From contig NZ_CAMZCS010000005.1 of assembly GCF_947305105.1 (NCBI RefSeq), forward strand, positions 62,001 to 126,000: 64,000 nt of DNA, given 5' to 3'. Source of the DNA: an uncultured Fibrobacter sp. (GTDB taxonomy: Bacteria > Fibrobacterota > Fibrobacteria > Fibrobacterales > Fibrobacteraceae). This document shows, one piece after another, positions 49,781 to 57,322 of the stretch. Under the pieces are notes generated by a model. It ran no database searches and was not told the DNA's origin. It saw only the letters and a program-made list of their open reading frames with translations. Every line of letters starts with the position of its first letter. The first letter of the stretch is position 1. The position numbers and the translations under genes are program-made.

Positions 49781-50248
49781 TTACGGTCCTTCCGGAGCTG
49801 GGCCAGGGACCACCTCGTACACCGTTTTGCCACTTGATTTAGGACTGAATGCAAAGTACTTGATGTCCGCATCCCTCGCCTCTATATCGAACCAATGGTC
49901 GCTCACGCACATGCATTTTGTTGGAATGATTGATTTTACATCGACAGAAAGCGTATCACCAAAACGATTCACATCCAATTTCACATCTGCAAACCCGCAA
50001 TAATCATCTAACTTCGGGATCATCACCTGGTATTTATCGTTTTCATGATATAGATACGCTTTCGGCAAATCTTCCGAGCCATCTTTTAACAGAATTCTGG
50101 AAAGACTTTCGTAGCAGCCCTTGAAGTCCATGTTCACTTCTCGTGCAGCGCCCTGTCCAGAAGCAGCCGGCGAATCATCGCTACCACAAGCCACGAACGG
50201 CAAGGGAGCGAAAACCATAACCATGGCGTATGCAAGCATCTTTTTCAT
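49781..50248 (-). CDS. Lipoprotein, paralogue 2 of 3
   Basis: A 155-aa predicted lipoprotein, signal MKKMLAYAMVMVFAPLPF with lipobox FVAC. The domain contains DKYQVMIP, RFGDTLSVDV, WFDIEARDADIKYFAF and ends VYEVVPGPAPEGP. The VVPGPAPE end is nearly the same as in the next paralogue. AAAGGGAGG precedes the ATG. The gene is separated from its neighbours by about 40 nt on each side, consistent with one operon running leftward. Confidence 0.72.
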   Translation of the reverse strand: MKKMLAYAMVMVFAPLPFVACGSDDSPAASGQGAAREVNMDFKGCYESLSRILLKDGSEDLPKAYLYHENDKYQVMIPKLDDYCGFADVKLDVNRFGDTLSVDVKSIIPTKCMCVSDHWFDIEARDADIKYFAFSPKSSGKTVYEVVPGPAPEGP

Positions 50249-50289
50249 ATTTCCTCCCTTTAAATATTCTTGGCAACCCGCCCTAATCG

Positions 50290-50961
50290 TTAATAGGAAC
50301 GGCGGTCAATTGAATCGGACGAAGATGATTGATAAATGTCGTACGGAAAGACGGTCCAGGTCGAATCATAAACACCTTCGGCAGACGGGGTGAATGTAGT
50401 TATTATACAGAAGGTTGTATCGTAAACTCCTTCTTCATAAGGTTTATCCAAAGGCGGAATACGATGACATGACGTATCGGGCGCTTTTTCGGGAGCAGGG
50501 CCAGGAACGACCTTGAACCCTCTATTATCGTACTCAAAATATTTGACATCCGCATCTTCTGCCGGAATATTAAAGGTGAAGTACGCATAACATTCCCAAG
50601 TTAAGATGGTATCCGTACCATTCAAGACACGCAAAGTATCCCCCACACGTTCTGCATTAAGTTCATGATTAGTGTAAGTTCTCCTACCACTCATATCTGG
50701 AATAATAATCTGGTAACCGACTTTTTCGTTATTAGTCAGGTAGGCTAGTTCTCCTCCATTGGTACGATTAAGGCTACAAGGGCCCGAATTGGCAAGCACT
50801 TTTTTTAGGGATACCGAATCGTTATCGGAGATGCCAGGTATTTCTTGATTGACCGTATTCAGGTCAATCGCGTTTGAAGTCTTTTCGTCACCGCAGGCCA
50901 CAAGGGCCAGGGTCAACGGAATCAGAGCCGAGACGACAATGTGTGCAAGTGTCTTTTTCAA
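50290..50961 (-). CDS. Lipoprotein, paralogue 3 of 3
   Basis: A 223-aa predicted lipoprotein with lipobox LVAC after KKTLAHIVVSALIPLTLA. The shared domain has VGYQIIIPD, RVGDTLRVLN, YFTFNIPAEDADVKYFEY and FKVVPGPAPE. It alone continues about 60 residues with two YEEGVYDTTF/SAEGVYDSTW repeats and a terminal Ser-rich patch. The TTG start at 50961 is chosen because AAAGGGGG lies 6 nt upstream and the protein then begins K-K like its paralogues; a TTG 12 codons further up is the alternative. The 240 bp upstream (50962-51203) hold no gene. Confidence 0.7.
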   Translation of the reverse strand: MKKTLAHIVVSALIPLTLALVACGDEKTSNAIDLNTVNQEIPGISDNDSVSLKKVLANSGPCSLNRTNGGELAYLTNNEKVGYQIIIPDMSGRRTYTNHELNAERVGDTLRVLNGTDTILTWECYAYFTFNIPAEDADVKYFEYDNRGFKVVPGPAPEKAPDTSCHRIPPLDKPYEEGVYDTTFCIITTFTPSAEGVYDSTWTVFPYDIYQSSSSDSIDRRSY

Positions 50962-51203
50962 GTCAACCCCCTTTACCTTTCCTGGAACGAAACTCAAGAA
51001 TCGGCCTCATATTATACAATATACGTTATGTTCTTCAAAACGCAAATAAAAAAAAATATACGAAATTAAGAATTTTGAGCAAAAATCACGCTTTTCCAGC
51101 AACTCTTGCCCAGCAAGCACAAAATACTATACATTATGTATAATGCAATAAATTTGCCCCCGAAAGGAGAAAATTTTATCAGCTAATTTATTTATAAACG
51201 AAA

Positions 51204-51567: not shown

Positions 51568-51602
51568 CTAGCCTCTAGCCCCTAGATTCTAATCTCTAAA
51601 AT
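51568..51602. repeat. Five-unit heptamer array filling the gatB 3' gap
   Basis: CTAGCCT, CTAGCCC, CTAGATT, CTAATCT, CTAAAAT; each starts with CTA, so TAG occurs every 7 nt on the gatB sense strand. Confidence 0.8.
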
Positions 51603-53056
51603 TATTCCTTCGCGAGCTTGTCGAGGATCTGGTTCACGAGGCCCGGGTTGGCCTTGCCGCCGGACTTGCGCATGGTCATACCGACCAAGAAGCCCTTCAG
51701 CGCAACCTTGCCAGCCTTGAATTCGGCGAACTGGGCAGCGTTCTCGGCACACACGGCGCGGACAACTTCTTCGATGGCGCCGGTGTCGGTCACCTGCACG
51801 AGGCCCTTTTCCTTCACGATGGCTTCGGGATCCTTGCCGGTTTCGAACATCTCGGCGAAGACCGTCTTAGCAATCTTACCGTTGATGGTGTTATCGGCAA
51901 TCAGGTTCACGAGCTTGCAGAGGTCTTCGGGCTTGATCTTGAGGGCAGAAAGACCACCTTCGAGTTCCTTCACCTTGGCGAGGAGTTCGGTAATCACCCA
52001 GTTGGCGAGCACCTTGCCGTTCTTGCAGTTCTTGGCGGCGGTGTCGTACCATTCGCTCACGTCGCGGTCTTCGGTCAGCACCATGGCGTCGTATTCGGAA
52101 ACACCAAAGTCGTCCATGAAGCGCTTGCGGCGGGCATCCGGCAGTTCCGGAAGCGTGCGGCGGATTTCTTCCACGAAGGCCGGGTCGGTCACGAGGCGGA
52201 CCATGTCCGGTTCCGGGAAGTACTTATAGTCGTGGGCGTCTTCCTTGCTGCGGATGACGATGGTCTTGTCCGCGTTGGGGTCGTAACGCTTGGTGCACTG
52301 TTCCACTTCCTTGCCGGCGTCGAGCGTCGAGGCCTGCAAGTTCATTTCGCAGTAGAGAGCCTTTTCGAGGTTCGTAAAGCTGTTCAGGTTCTTGATTTCG
52401 GCGCGGATACCGAACGGAGCGTCTTCGCTGGCACGCAGAGAAATGTTGCCGTCGCAGCGCATGTTGCCGTTTTCCATGTTGGCGTTGGAAACGCGCGTGT
52501 ATTCGAGAGTCTGCTTGATTTTCTTCAAAACGAGCACGGCTTCTTCGGGGCTACGGATATCCGGTTCGGTAACGATTTCGCAGAGCGGGGTGCCGCAACG
52601 GTTCGCGTCAAAATGGGAATCGGTCGGGCTCATGTCGTGGATGAGCTTACCGGCGTCTTCTTCCATGTGGATACGGGTAATGCCCACGCGCTTCTTGGTG
52701 CCGTCTTCCTTGACGATTTCGAGCCAGCCGTTCTTGCAAATCGGGTGGTCGTACACCGGAAGTCCGCCCGTCTGGGTAATCTGGTAGCCCTTCGGCAGGT
52801 CCGGGTAGAAGTAGTTCTTGCGGGTCCACATCGCATTCAGGTCGATTTCGCAGTTCAGGGCAAGGCCCAGGCGAATCGCGTATTCCACCGCCTTCTTGTT
52901 CGGAACGGGCATGGCACCCGGCATACCGAGGCAAACAGGGCAAACGTGCTTGTTCGGGGTCGTATTCACTTCGATTTCGCAGCCGCAGAACATCTTCGTC
53001 TTAGTTGCGAGCTGGCAATGGATTTCGAGACCGATAACAGGACAATAGTTGGACAT
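51602..53056 (-). CDS. gatB: Asp-tRNA(Asn)/Glu-tRNA(Gln) amidotransferase subunit B
   Basis: A 484-aa kinase/tRNA-recognition subunit of GatCAB, which amidates mischarged Glu-tRNA-Gln or Asp-tRNA-Asn. Hallmarks are VIGLEIHCQLAT, the zinc site with C-G-C and CPVCLGMPGAMPVPN, QITQTGGLPVYDHP, GKLIHDM and DFNRxGTPL-like FDANRCGTPLCEIVTEPD, RCDGNISLR, and the C-terminal YqeY-like domain. Start MSNYCPVIGLEIH fits homologues. gatA and gatC are not adjacent. Heptamer arrays flank both ends. Confidence 0.97.
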   Translation of the reverse strand: MSNYCPVIGLEIHCQLATKTKMFCGCEIEVNTTPNKHVCPVCLGMPGAMPVPNKKAVEYAIRLGLALNCEIDLNAMWTRKNYFYPDLPKGYQITQTGGLPVYDHPICKNGWLEIVKEDGTKKRVGITRIHMEEDAGKLIHDMSPTDSHFDANRCGTPLCEIVTEPDIRSPEEAVLVLKKIKQTLEYTRVSNANMENGNMRCDGNISLRASEDAPFGIRAEIKNLNSFTNLEKALYCEMNLQASTLDAGKEVEQCTKRYDPNADKTIVIRSKEDAHDYKYFPEPDMVRLVTDPAFVEEIRRTLPELPDARRKRFMDDFGVSEYDAMVLTEDRDVSEWYDTAAKNCKNGKVLANWVITELLAKVKELEGGLSALKIKPEDLCKLVNLIADNTINGKIAKTVFAEMFETGKDPEAIVKEKGLVQVTDTGAIEEVVRAVCAENAAQFAEFKAGKVALKGFLVGMTMRKSGGKANPGLVNQILDKLAKE

Positions 53057-54062: not shown

Positions 54063-54512
54063 CTACACTTCGTCCAACGTCACGACGAGGGCATCGGTTG
54101 CGTCACGGAAGTTTGCGCATTCGGTGAGGATGCAGTCGGCGCCGTTCACGAACGCGGTCGCAAGGCGCAGGGACTCCGCCTCGGTAATCTTGTGGTTCGT
54201 CTTCTGCGAGGCGGCATAGAGTTCGGCGGCCTTTACAGAAACCTCGGCATCTACCGGGCACACCTTCACGTTCGCAGAATGTTCGAAGAACTCGCGGTAC
54301 TGCCGGGCAAGCACGCCTTCGTTCGCAGCGAACGCCTTCTGGCTAATCTCGAACAAGGTAACGGACGATACCAGAACTTGCATGTTCTTCTCGTACACCA
54401 TGTCAAGCACGCCCGACACCGCCGGATAAAAGTCCGGGTGCATCTGCAACAGCCGGACCAGCGGTCCAGAATCAAGGAACAGTATCCGGCTTTGCTCGAT
54501 GGAATTTATCAT
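54063..54512 (-). CDS. PIN-domain protein (VapC-like)
   Basis: A 149-aa predicted Mg-dependent RNase-like PIN protein. The first acidic site is in RILFLDSGPLVRLL, the second in VTLFEISQKA, and the later region has TEAESLRLATAFVNGADCIL and TECANFRD, where PIN proteins usually have T-N-D-x-x-F; the acid is Glu here. The ATG overlaps the stop of the upstream gene (ATGA), so it is translationally coupled to a secreted protein, and no VapB-like antitoxin is present. The coupling argues against a simple toxin-antitoxin locus. Confidence 0.72.
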   Translation of the reverse strand: MINSIEQSRILFLDSGPLVRLLQMHPDFYPAVSGVLDMVYEKNMQVLVSSVTLFEISQKAFAANEGVLARQYREFFEHSANVKVCPVDAEVSVKAAELYAASQKTNHKITEAESLRLATAFVNGADCILTECANFRDATDALVVTLDEV

Positions 54513-55561
54513 TCGTAGATTTCCATGTAAGCGATATCTTCGCGCATACCGGCGCGGACCATCTTGAGGCGTTCGGCCTTCGGGTAGAAATACCAAATCA
54601 TCCACTCGCCACTCATGTCGGTGCGCTTGGTCTTGATGGCAATGGGCTTTTCACCTTTGTAGTAATCGCGTTTGTGCGGAATCATGTGCTCGAACGGACG
54701 ATAAGTGTGGACTTCCTCGCCTGCCTGGCGTTCGACAAAACCGTTGCCGTCCTTGCTCCAGGTGATAGTGATAACGCCGTTGTCGTCCTTCACCTTTTCG
54801 CAACTGTCAAAGCCGCTACCACACCAGAAGTACTTCTTGAACTTGAACTTCTGCTCGGGCATTTCAAATACTTCGGCTTTGCGGGCATTGCCTTTGTATG
54901 TGGGGTACTCGCCTTCGAGTTTGTACTTGCCCACATTGTATTCATAACAACCGCGCTGTGCGACTTTCACCTTGCGGTTATTGACAGCGATGTCGATATT
55001 GCAACCTTCCTCGTGGTAGGACAACCGCGCATGCCCGTTGCTCTCTTGGATTTCCAGATTACCCATCTCGATTTCTGAACGTTCAGTCACAGGGCCGTTC
55101 TGGATAATCACGTCGAACCGCTTGGGATTGTTCGGAGACTTTCTCAAGAAGACACTGCCAGTGGCAGACGCATATTCGCCACTGAGGTCCTTCGCCTCTT
55201 GCAAGAATCGGGCGAGTTCGGCACGTTTCACAAACACCTTTCCGTGTTTGCAATCAATGGGAACAAAGGGCGGCGGGTTCTTGGGATCGCGGGGACGCCA
55301 GGAAATATAACGCTTGGTCACATTCTGGATTTTCTTCTTTCCGTTCTTGCCGATAACTTCGCGACGTTCTTTCTCTATACGGACACGTTTGACCGAATCC
55401 TTCGGAATAGGCAATTCCGTAATCCAGTCCGACATGGAAAGTGTACCCACAGGTTTACTTTCGTCAACTTCTTTGCCGTTCTTCTTATAGACATTCAAAG
55501 TTTCTTGTCCAAAACAACATGCACAACCCAATGTGACCAGAATTGCAAGTAAAATTTTCAA
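54509..55561 (-). CDS. Exported protein, unknown, coupled to PIN gene
   Basis: A 350-aa protein with a signal peptide (KILLAILVTLGCACCFGQ) and a mature part rich in charged and aromatic residues: SDWITELPIP, YISWRPRDPKNPPPF, KHGKVFVKRAELARFLQE, then two paired-Cys segments (EEGCNIDIAV and YFWCGSGFDSCEK) and a C-terminal SGEWMIWYFYPKAER. TTG at 55561 is chosen for its AGAGGCGG site and signal peptide; two ATGs lie 11 and 13 codons upstream. I recognise no domain. Confidence 0.6.
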   Translation of the reverse strand: MKILLAILVTLGCACCFGQETLNVYKKNGKEVDESKPVGTLSMSDWITELPIPKDSVKRVRIEKERREVIGKNGKKKIQNVTKRYISWRPRDPKNPPPFVPIDCKHGKVFVKRAELARFLQEAKDLSGEYASATGSVFLRKSPNNPKRFDVIIQNGPVTERSEIEMGNLEIQESNGHARLSYHEEGCNIDIAVNNRKVKVAQRGCYEYNVGKYKLEGEYPTYKGNARKAEVFEMPEQKFKFKKYFWCGSGFDSCEKVKDDNGVITITWSKDGNGFVERQAGEEVHTYRPFEHMIPHKRDYYKGEKPIAIKTKRTDMSGEWMIWYFYPKAERLKMVRAGMREDIAYMEIYE

Positions 55562-55708
55562 AATTCCGCCTCTTCGAACAAAAAAACACACCATTTTCAA
55601 AAAAAAGGTAATATTTTAAACCTACTTGGTAACAATATTTTTATAATTCTAATTGAATTTTACAATTGGAACATTCGTAAAATGCCATCCACAAAAGGAG
55701 ATTGTGTC

Positions 55709-57322
55709 ATGAAGAAAATTTTCCTAGCATCCTGCATGCTGGCAGCATCCGTGTTTGCCGCACCGCAGGCTGCTGCTAATGCTAATGCTGCACCTGCAGC
55801 AGCTCCGGCTGCTGCCGCTCCCGCCGCTGCACCGGCCAAGCCAGCTCCTGCTGCTGCACCTGCAAAGGACGCGAAGGCTGCTCCGGCTGCCGAAGCCGCC
55901 AAGCCCGCTGCAGCACCTGCAGCCGCTCCTGCCGCACCGGCCAAGGACGCAAAGGCAGAACCGGCCAAGCCCGCAGCCGCTCCCGCCGCTCCGGCCAAGG
56001 ACGCGAAGGCAGAACCGGCTAAGCCCGAAGCTGCAAAGCCTGCCGAACAGGCTGCCGCTCCTGCCGCTGCACCGGCTGACACAACAAAGGCCGCTCCCGC
56101 CGAAGAAGCAAAGCCGGCAGAAGCTGCCGCAGCTCCCGTAGCCGCACCGGCTGACTCCGCAAAGGCCGAACCCGCAGCCGAAGTCGCTGCAAGCGACACT
56201 GCAAAGGCTGCTCCGACCGAAGCCGAAATTGCCGCCAACACCGACGAACAGGGATTCATCTCCGCTCCGGATCAGCAGGATCAGCCCAAGAAGAAAAAAC
56301 GCCGCAAAAAGAAAAAACTCGTTGAAAACGCCGTCATCTCGACGGACAAGGCCGAATTCGGCATTCTCGCTGACTTCGAATTGAGCGCCGAAAAGGTGTT
56401 CTGGAATAGCGAAGACGACACCAACAACGACAACCTCGAAACATGGCAGGGCGAAGCCAACTTCGCTATCCTCGCCGAAGGTGAGAACTTCAAGGGCAAG
56501 TTGGCCGTCGCCTTCTACCCGGGTGACCTCAGGGACGAAAACTTCGGTGGCAAGGACGCCAAGCAAGAAGCCCTCCGCAACAACGAAAACGGCACCCTGG
56601 ACGACTACTTCTCCCTCGACGAAGCTTGGGCCTACCAGAGCACCGACTTGTTCAACTTCAAGGTCGGTCGTTGGGACAACACCGACAAGAACGGTGACTA
56701 CTTCGGTGGTTACATCGATGGCTACCTGGCTGGATTCCTTTCCACCCAGAAGTCCGAGAACCAGTTGCAGTTCGGCATCTCCCCGACAGACAACATGGAC
56801 TTCACCCTTGCCTTCATCAGCCAAGCTGTGAACCTGGATAACGGCGACCTCCGTGCTGCCTTCAATTTCCACGGTCTCGAAGGCCTGAGCGAACTGAAGA
56901 TCCAGCTCGCCTACCGCAGCAACCTCTTCGACAAGGTGTATGACTCCGACTCCAAGGTCAAGCACAACACTTCGTTGAAGGCAAGCCTCCCGCTCGTCAA
57001 GAACGCCGTGAGCCTCTTTGCCGAAGCTGCTCTGCTTGACATTTCCAGCGACGACGACATGGTCATCCCGGTGACGGGTGGTTTCCTGTTCCAGACCAAG
57101 GTTGTTGACCGCATCATCCTCGAAGCAGAATACATCGGCGACCGTCAGGATCATCCTGAATACTGGGGTATCAAGAATCCGAAGCACATCAAGGACGTGC
57201 TCGGTGCCCTCTACCTCGAAAAGGCCTTCACCGACCGCTTCAGCCTGTCCGCTGGTTTCCACAGCTTCGGCTGCACCAAGGACTTCGCCCTTTCCGGCAA
57301 CCTGATTGGTCGAATCAACTAA
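55709..57322 (+). CDS. Outer-membrane barrel protein with Ala/Pro/Lys-rich linker
   Basis: A 537-aa exported protein. Signal peptide MKKIFLASCMLAASVFA; residues about 20-180 are almost pure Ala/Pro/Lys/Glu with PAKDAKAEPAKP-type repeats; a basic patch KKKKRRKKKK (about 200-210) follows; residues about 220-537 have alternating amphipathic strands typical of a porin (GILADFELSAEKVFW, EGENFKGKLAVAFYP, FNFKVGRWDNTDKNG, LEAEYIGDRQDHPEYWG) and a C-terminal strand. The linker may span or bind peptidoglycan. GGAG precedes the ATG. A strong terminator follows. Probably abundant, given its biased codons. Confidence 0.75.
   Translation: MKKIFLASCMLAASVFAAPQAAANANAAPAAAPAAAAPAAAPAKPAPAAAPAKDAKAAPAAEAAKPAAAPAAAPAAPAKDAKAEPAKPAAAPAAPAKDAKAEPAKPEAAKPAEQAAAPAAAPADTTKAAPAEEAKPAEAAAAPVAAPADSAKAEPAAEVAASDTAKAAPTEAEIAANTDEQGFISAPDQQDQPKKKKRRKKKKLVENAVISTDKAEFGILADFELSAEKVFWNSEDDTNNDNLETWQGEANFAILAEGENFKGKLAVAFYPGDLRDENFGGKDAKQEALRNNENGTLDDYFSLDEAWAYQSTDLFNFKVGRWDNTDKNGDYFGGYIDGYLAGFLSTQKSENQLQFGISPTDNMDFTLAFISQAVNLDNGDLRAAFNFHGLEGLSELKIQLAYRSNLFDKVYDSDSKVKHNTSLKASLPLVKNAVSLFAEAALLDISSDDDMVIPVTGGFLFQTKVVDRIILEAEYIGDRQDHPEYWGIKNPKHIKDVLGALYLEKAFTDRFSLSAGFHSFGCTKDFALSGNLIGRIN

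Follow-up and report, generated by a model that had tools for sequence, protein, structure and literature searches.

Among described systems, those closest to the locus studied here are the VapBC and FitAB modules, whose toxins VapC and FitB are PIN-domain proteins (PF01850), and the protein-only RNase P (HARP) of Aquifex and its relatives. HARP belongs to PIN_5 and to the VapC structural group; it is presented as a stand-alone PIN protein of that group that is evolutionarily linked to toxin-antitoxin systems (PMC8266387). We focused on a 64,000-nucleotide stretch of DNA from an uncultured Fibrobacter sp. (referred to as the window here), in which a PIN-domain gene with a predicted VapC-like fold and no antitoxin partner found (54063..54512, minus strand; ATG start, 149 amino acids) follows a gene for a putatively secreted, beta-rich protein of unassigned family (54509..55561, minus strand; TTG start, 350 amino acids). 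As the sequence-only reading of this DNA had pointed out, the stop codon of the upstream gene and the start codon of the PIN gene share the bases ATGA (54509..54512, minus strand). That reading had proposed that a PIN protein coupled to a secreted protein, with no VapB-type antitoxin present, may represent a different type of module.

The assignment to the PIN family was borne out by both profile and structure comparisons. The window protein scored 22.9 bits against PF01850, just below the cut-off of 23.6 and weak if taken alone, and all 32 aligned PIN relatives matched this family at E ≤ 0.1 (best 1.9e-8). The Pfam matches of the protein and its relatives comprise PF01850 and PIN_3, while PIN_5 is not among the matches listed. 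A PDB sequence profile search with the PIN protein gave nothing at E ≤ 0.1. Its AlphaFold2 model (pLDDT 76, pTM 0.72) retrieved VapC and FitB toxins with Foldseek (E 7e-7, TM about 0.7), and a VIA comparison of the model with Shigella VapC gave a Z of 15.8 and an rmsd of 2.3 over 130 residues. As modeled, the 149-amino-acid protein is a genuine PIN domain with a clear VapC/FitB fold. Neither this protein nor its secreted neighbor matched any of the PADLOC defence-system families.

For the 350-amino-acid protein, no Pfam family scored above the cut-off, and the hints from Pfam and NCBIfam (Pab87_oct and MepK) were weak. Its model is almost entirely beta; a PDB fold search with this model returned nothing at E ≤ 0.001, the best rows being too weak for use, and a PDB sequence profile search returned two weak matches only. 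A comparison of the relatives reveals a conserved hydrophobic stretch at the N terminus, after which F-A/G-Q recurs where cleavage is likely. Because of these two features, the protein is predicted to carry an N-terminal signal peptide and to leave the cytoplasm, which agrees with the signal peptide proposed earlier. The TTG start at 55561 is found again in most relatives, as a leucine-lysine codon pair. As a separate observation, the reading frame of the secreted-protein gene stays open for more than 900 codons, far past the protein itself, in four genomes (G104, G063, G101 and G076).

Conserved co-occurrence of the two families, the check suggested by the sequence-only reading, was found across a set of 167 genomes from the phylum. 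Of these, 86 have the PIN protein (counting two distant matches from another family), 88 have the secreted protein and 84 have both, and the four genomes with the secreted-protein gene and no PIN gene are each 62 to 87% complete. For the 89 genomes of good quality (completeness of 90% or more, contamination of 5% or less), the presence tallies of each gene imply that 50 have both and that none has one alone except for a distant PIN match in G165. Profile searches agree with these numbers (secreted protein, 88/167; PIN protein, 93/167, with its seven extra genomes all at ≤31 bits). Each genome holds one copy of each gene, which is in two pieces in G123 (PIN gene) and G132 (secreted-protein gene), and the named relatives from one contig scan (32 loci) are Fibrobacter in every case. 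Both genes are apparently single copy and vertically inherited within one bacterial family. On a tree of gatB built from 22 of 27 matches, the pair-bearing genomes do not group as a single clade, and two of the rows without the pair come from incomplete genomes (71 and 78%); this tree neither shows nor excludes a single gain of the pair. The PIN gene is under purifying selection, with dN/dS values of 0.03 to 0.16 in 9 of 12 hand-picked pairs, including pairs inside both groups in which the two genes are unlinked (the remaining three pairs were saturated and hence gave no value).

The two genes are adjacent on one strand in 68 of the 84 genomes having both, so that their pairing is not due to chance. 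In the other 16 genomes, all of which retain both genes, they are unlinked, lying 40 to 167 kb apart on one contig in 3 cases and being judged from separate contigs in 13. The linked or unlinked state requires two changes on the secreted-protein tree, a count that omits rows with no PIN gene found and two partial rows, and linkage is lost in two separate lineages. Among 66 distinct junctions, 45 overlap (by 4 bases in 22, by 8 in 19 and by 1 in 4); at the remaining 21 the genes lie 0 to 317 bp apart, with a gap of more than 100 bp at 4 of them. Coupling by overlap is common yet dispensable, and an overlap of precisely the ATGA type is less widespread than adjacency.

The genes around the pair show how it came apart. 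The usual order in Fibrobacter is mfd, a TatD-type gene, a divergent outer-membrane-type gene, the secreted-protein gene, the PIN gene and gatB, although gatB is not directly adjacent to the PIN gene in every clade. In the unlinked Fibrobacter set (10 genomes), the break falls in the middle of the pair, leaving the secreted-protein gene with mfd and the TatD-type gene and the PIN gene with gatB. In the six genomes of genus g6, also unlinked, the PIN gene is flanked by the outer-membrane-type gene and gatB; the secreted-protein gene adjoins RND-type and TypA-type genes. The gatB gene, coding for amidotransferase subunit B (51602..53056, minus strand, in the window), is the neighbor that the PIN gene retains in each of the two unlinked lineages. 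The outer-membrane-type gene (55682..57322, plus strand; 546 amino acids, no Pfam match, labeled “PORIN” by us) remains linked to the secreted-protein gene in Fibrobacter and to the PIN gene in genus g6. The gatB, mfd, RND-type, TypA-type and outer-membrane-type labels are ones that we take to apply from the sequences; the TatD label is not among these. Two further features of the window were noted in passing: the 546-amino-acid protein has a long Ala/Pro/Lys-rich stretch after its N terminus (55760-56200, plus strand), and two adjacent small lipoprotein-like genes (49781-50997, minus strand) are paralogues (32% identity, E 4e-19) that both bear a VVPGPAPE motif and have no Pfam match.

To look for an antitoxin, we listed the open reading frames beside the PIN gene and examined them by eye and with one all-against-all BLAST (first 60 rows). 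No VapB-like frame was recognized adjoining the window PIN gene, as had been stated before, and none was recognized among 88 small same-strand frames at 80 distinct PIN loci; most of these frames are downstream of the PIN gene and are either shared by close relatives alone or located within unlabeled genes. In the unlinked Fibrobacter clade, a conserved upstream frame of 43 amino acids abuts the start of the PIN gene. We rejected it as a gene, given that its identity falls to 44% in L078 and L079 and that it has no match in L089, and that it starts just past a divergent tRNA-Met gene, on its promoter side, which explains the conservation. The PIN gene is divergent from this tRNA-Met (cat) gene in all six scanned loci of the unlinked Fibrobacter set (e.g., L076:6788-6862), which may be a coincidence. 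VapC toxins that cut initiator tRNA exist.

The window genome contains, in contrast, another PIN gene (on C7, PIN_3) with RelB (45 bits) immediately before it. For a further PIN gene of the same genome (G000), on contig C58 (L170, 2397-2885), the adjacent 66-amino-acid frame matched no Pfam family; both adjoin a CRISPR-like array of about 32 repeat units with a constant 61-base spacing (L170:1-2050), and a 202-amino-acid frame upstream of this PIN gene (L170:2919-3527) may resemble an AbiEi-type antitoxin. Outside the family, the nearest PIN protein is L105, from the class-level relative G165, which scores 60 bits with the family profile. Unlike the family loci, it lies immediately downstream of a Phd/YefM antitoxin gene; by eye, a frame of similar kind also precedes its sister L106. 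The sequence-only reading had named two findings that would speak against its proposal, namely, a pairing absent from relatives or a VapB-like gene nearby in them. These were borne out in part. On the first, the genes are unlinked in some relatives and adjacent in most; on the second, an antitoxin gene stands next to the PIN gene of L105, outside the family, and none was recognized beside the PIN loci within it.

We defined the active-site columns by L105, a canonical homologue with D, E, D and D at the four positions, and counted residues in 83 distinct PIN rows, including the frameshifted L094 and L145, which is cut by a contig end. In Fibrobacter, D14 and E55 are each found in 70/70 rows and position 113 is acidic in all 69 rows having a letter there, while position 132, acidic in L105, is a cysteine in 51 of 68. 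In the other genera of the family, D14 is kept in 11 of 12 rows and position 113 is acidic in 11 of 12, residue 55 is acidic in six and nonacidic in six, and position 132 is an asparagine in 10 of 12. In G144 (L096:4845-5273), a one-contig genome of genus g6, the PIN ortholog is intact even though D14 is replaced by G and E55 by N. Catalysis by the PIN protein is uncertain, because position 132 is mostly cysteine in Fibrobacter and residue 55 is nonacidic in half of the rows from other genera.

Considering the observed family, fold, distribution, synteny, purifying selection and active-site pattern of the PIN protein, the reading that we hold to be somewhat probable is that a VapC-like nuclease turned into a solitary, vertically inherited core gene without an antitoxin, with the secreted-protein gene as its operon partner and not as the source of a neutralizer. 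Under this reading, the ancestor was most likely a toxin from a type II toxin-antitoxin module, a descent traced through a homologue of only 22% identity; the antitoxin would then have been lost and the PIN gene kept as a lineage-specific core gene of the bacterial family to which Fibrobacter belongs. The Fibrobacter protein is most likely still a cytoplasmic metal-dependent RNase, whose activity may have been lowered or narrowed to the point where it is presumably nontoxic and an antitoxin unneeded, and in some of the other genera catalysis may have been lost. The overlapping secreted-protein gene, probably cotranscribed with the PIN gene, would supply transcription and coupled translation. 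What stands against the solitary core gene is the common phyletic pattern of the two genes and their joint retention after separation, which would be unexpected for casual neighbors; common ancestry and separate usefulness could suffice to account for both.

A less probable explanation, to which we nevertheless give some weight, is that the PIN protein is a noncatalytic, RNA-binding or structural descendant of VapC. The nonacidic residue 55 in other genera, the glycine at position 14 in G144 and the cysteine at position 132 in most Fibrobacter rows all fit this explanation, as does the persistence of purifying selection on the PIN gene in genus g6, but in Fibrobacter every row with letters at these positions retains D14, E55 and an acidic residue 113.

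It is improbable, in our judgment, that the two genes form a functional module in which the secreted protein, or a precursor of it that has not been exported, acts as an envelope sensor with control over the PIN nuclease, an export fault freeing or binding the latter. The prevailing adjacency, the overlap at more than two-thirds of the junctions and the retention of both genes in every unlinked genome are compatible with such control. They have to be weighed against unlinking in two lineages, spacings that reach 317 bp elsewhere, predicted locations in different compartments and a partner for which the fold search gave nothing at E ≤ 0.001. It is equally improbable that the two proteins are a real functional pair despite two separations, in which a PIN nuclease without an antitoxin is linked to the condition of the envelope or of protein export. 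That the pair is itself a toxin-antitoxin system is unlikely, since the predicted compartments of the two proteins differ and both linkage and overlap are dispensable. The earlier suggestion of a different type of toxin-antitoxin module was thus not upheld: an obligate linkage, which a new type with a secreted partner would call for, fails in 16 of 84 genomes with both genes kept, overlap is absent at 21 of 66 junctions, the partner is predicted to be extracytoplasmic, and the distribution is vertical and single copy, while the conserved co-occurrence could be explained by shared ancestry. Finally, a true VapC toxin with its antitoxin encoded elsewhere in the genome would be in keeping with the fold and with at least one RelB-type antitoxin in the window genome, but is very improbable for a family-wide, apparently vertical single-copy gene with no antitoxin recognized beside it at 80 distinct loci.

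As a VapC-like core protein without an antitoxin, followed through many species and two natural unlinkings, the PIN protein provides a clean case in which it becomes testable how a toxin fold is tamed, be it by active-site change, substrate narrowing or control. It also serves as a warning that an overlapping gene pair with a PIN domain need not be a toxin-antitoxin module. With the VapC and FitB toxins it shares the PIN fold over its whole length, its size and, in Fibrobacter, the core acidic residues. Unlike these toxins, it has no adjacent antitoxin that we could find, is inherited as a single-copy gene throughout the family, has an altered fourth active-site position and overlaps a secreted-protein gene instead. 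We also considered whether the PIN protein could be a HARP replacement and rejected this, because a bacterial RNase P RNA is present in the window genome (294 bits) and the listed Pfam matches are to PF01850 and PIN_3 and not to PIN_5. What it has in common with HARP, as the latter is described in PMC8266387, is that both are stand-alone PIN proteins of the VapC group, and HARP is a precedent for a PIN protein of this group turned core enzyme.
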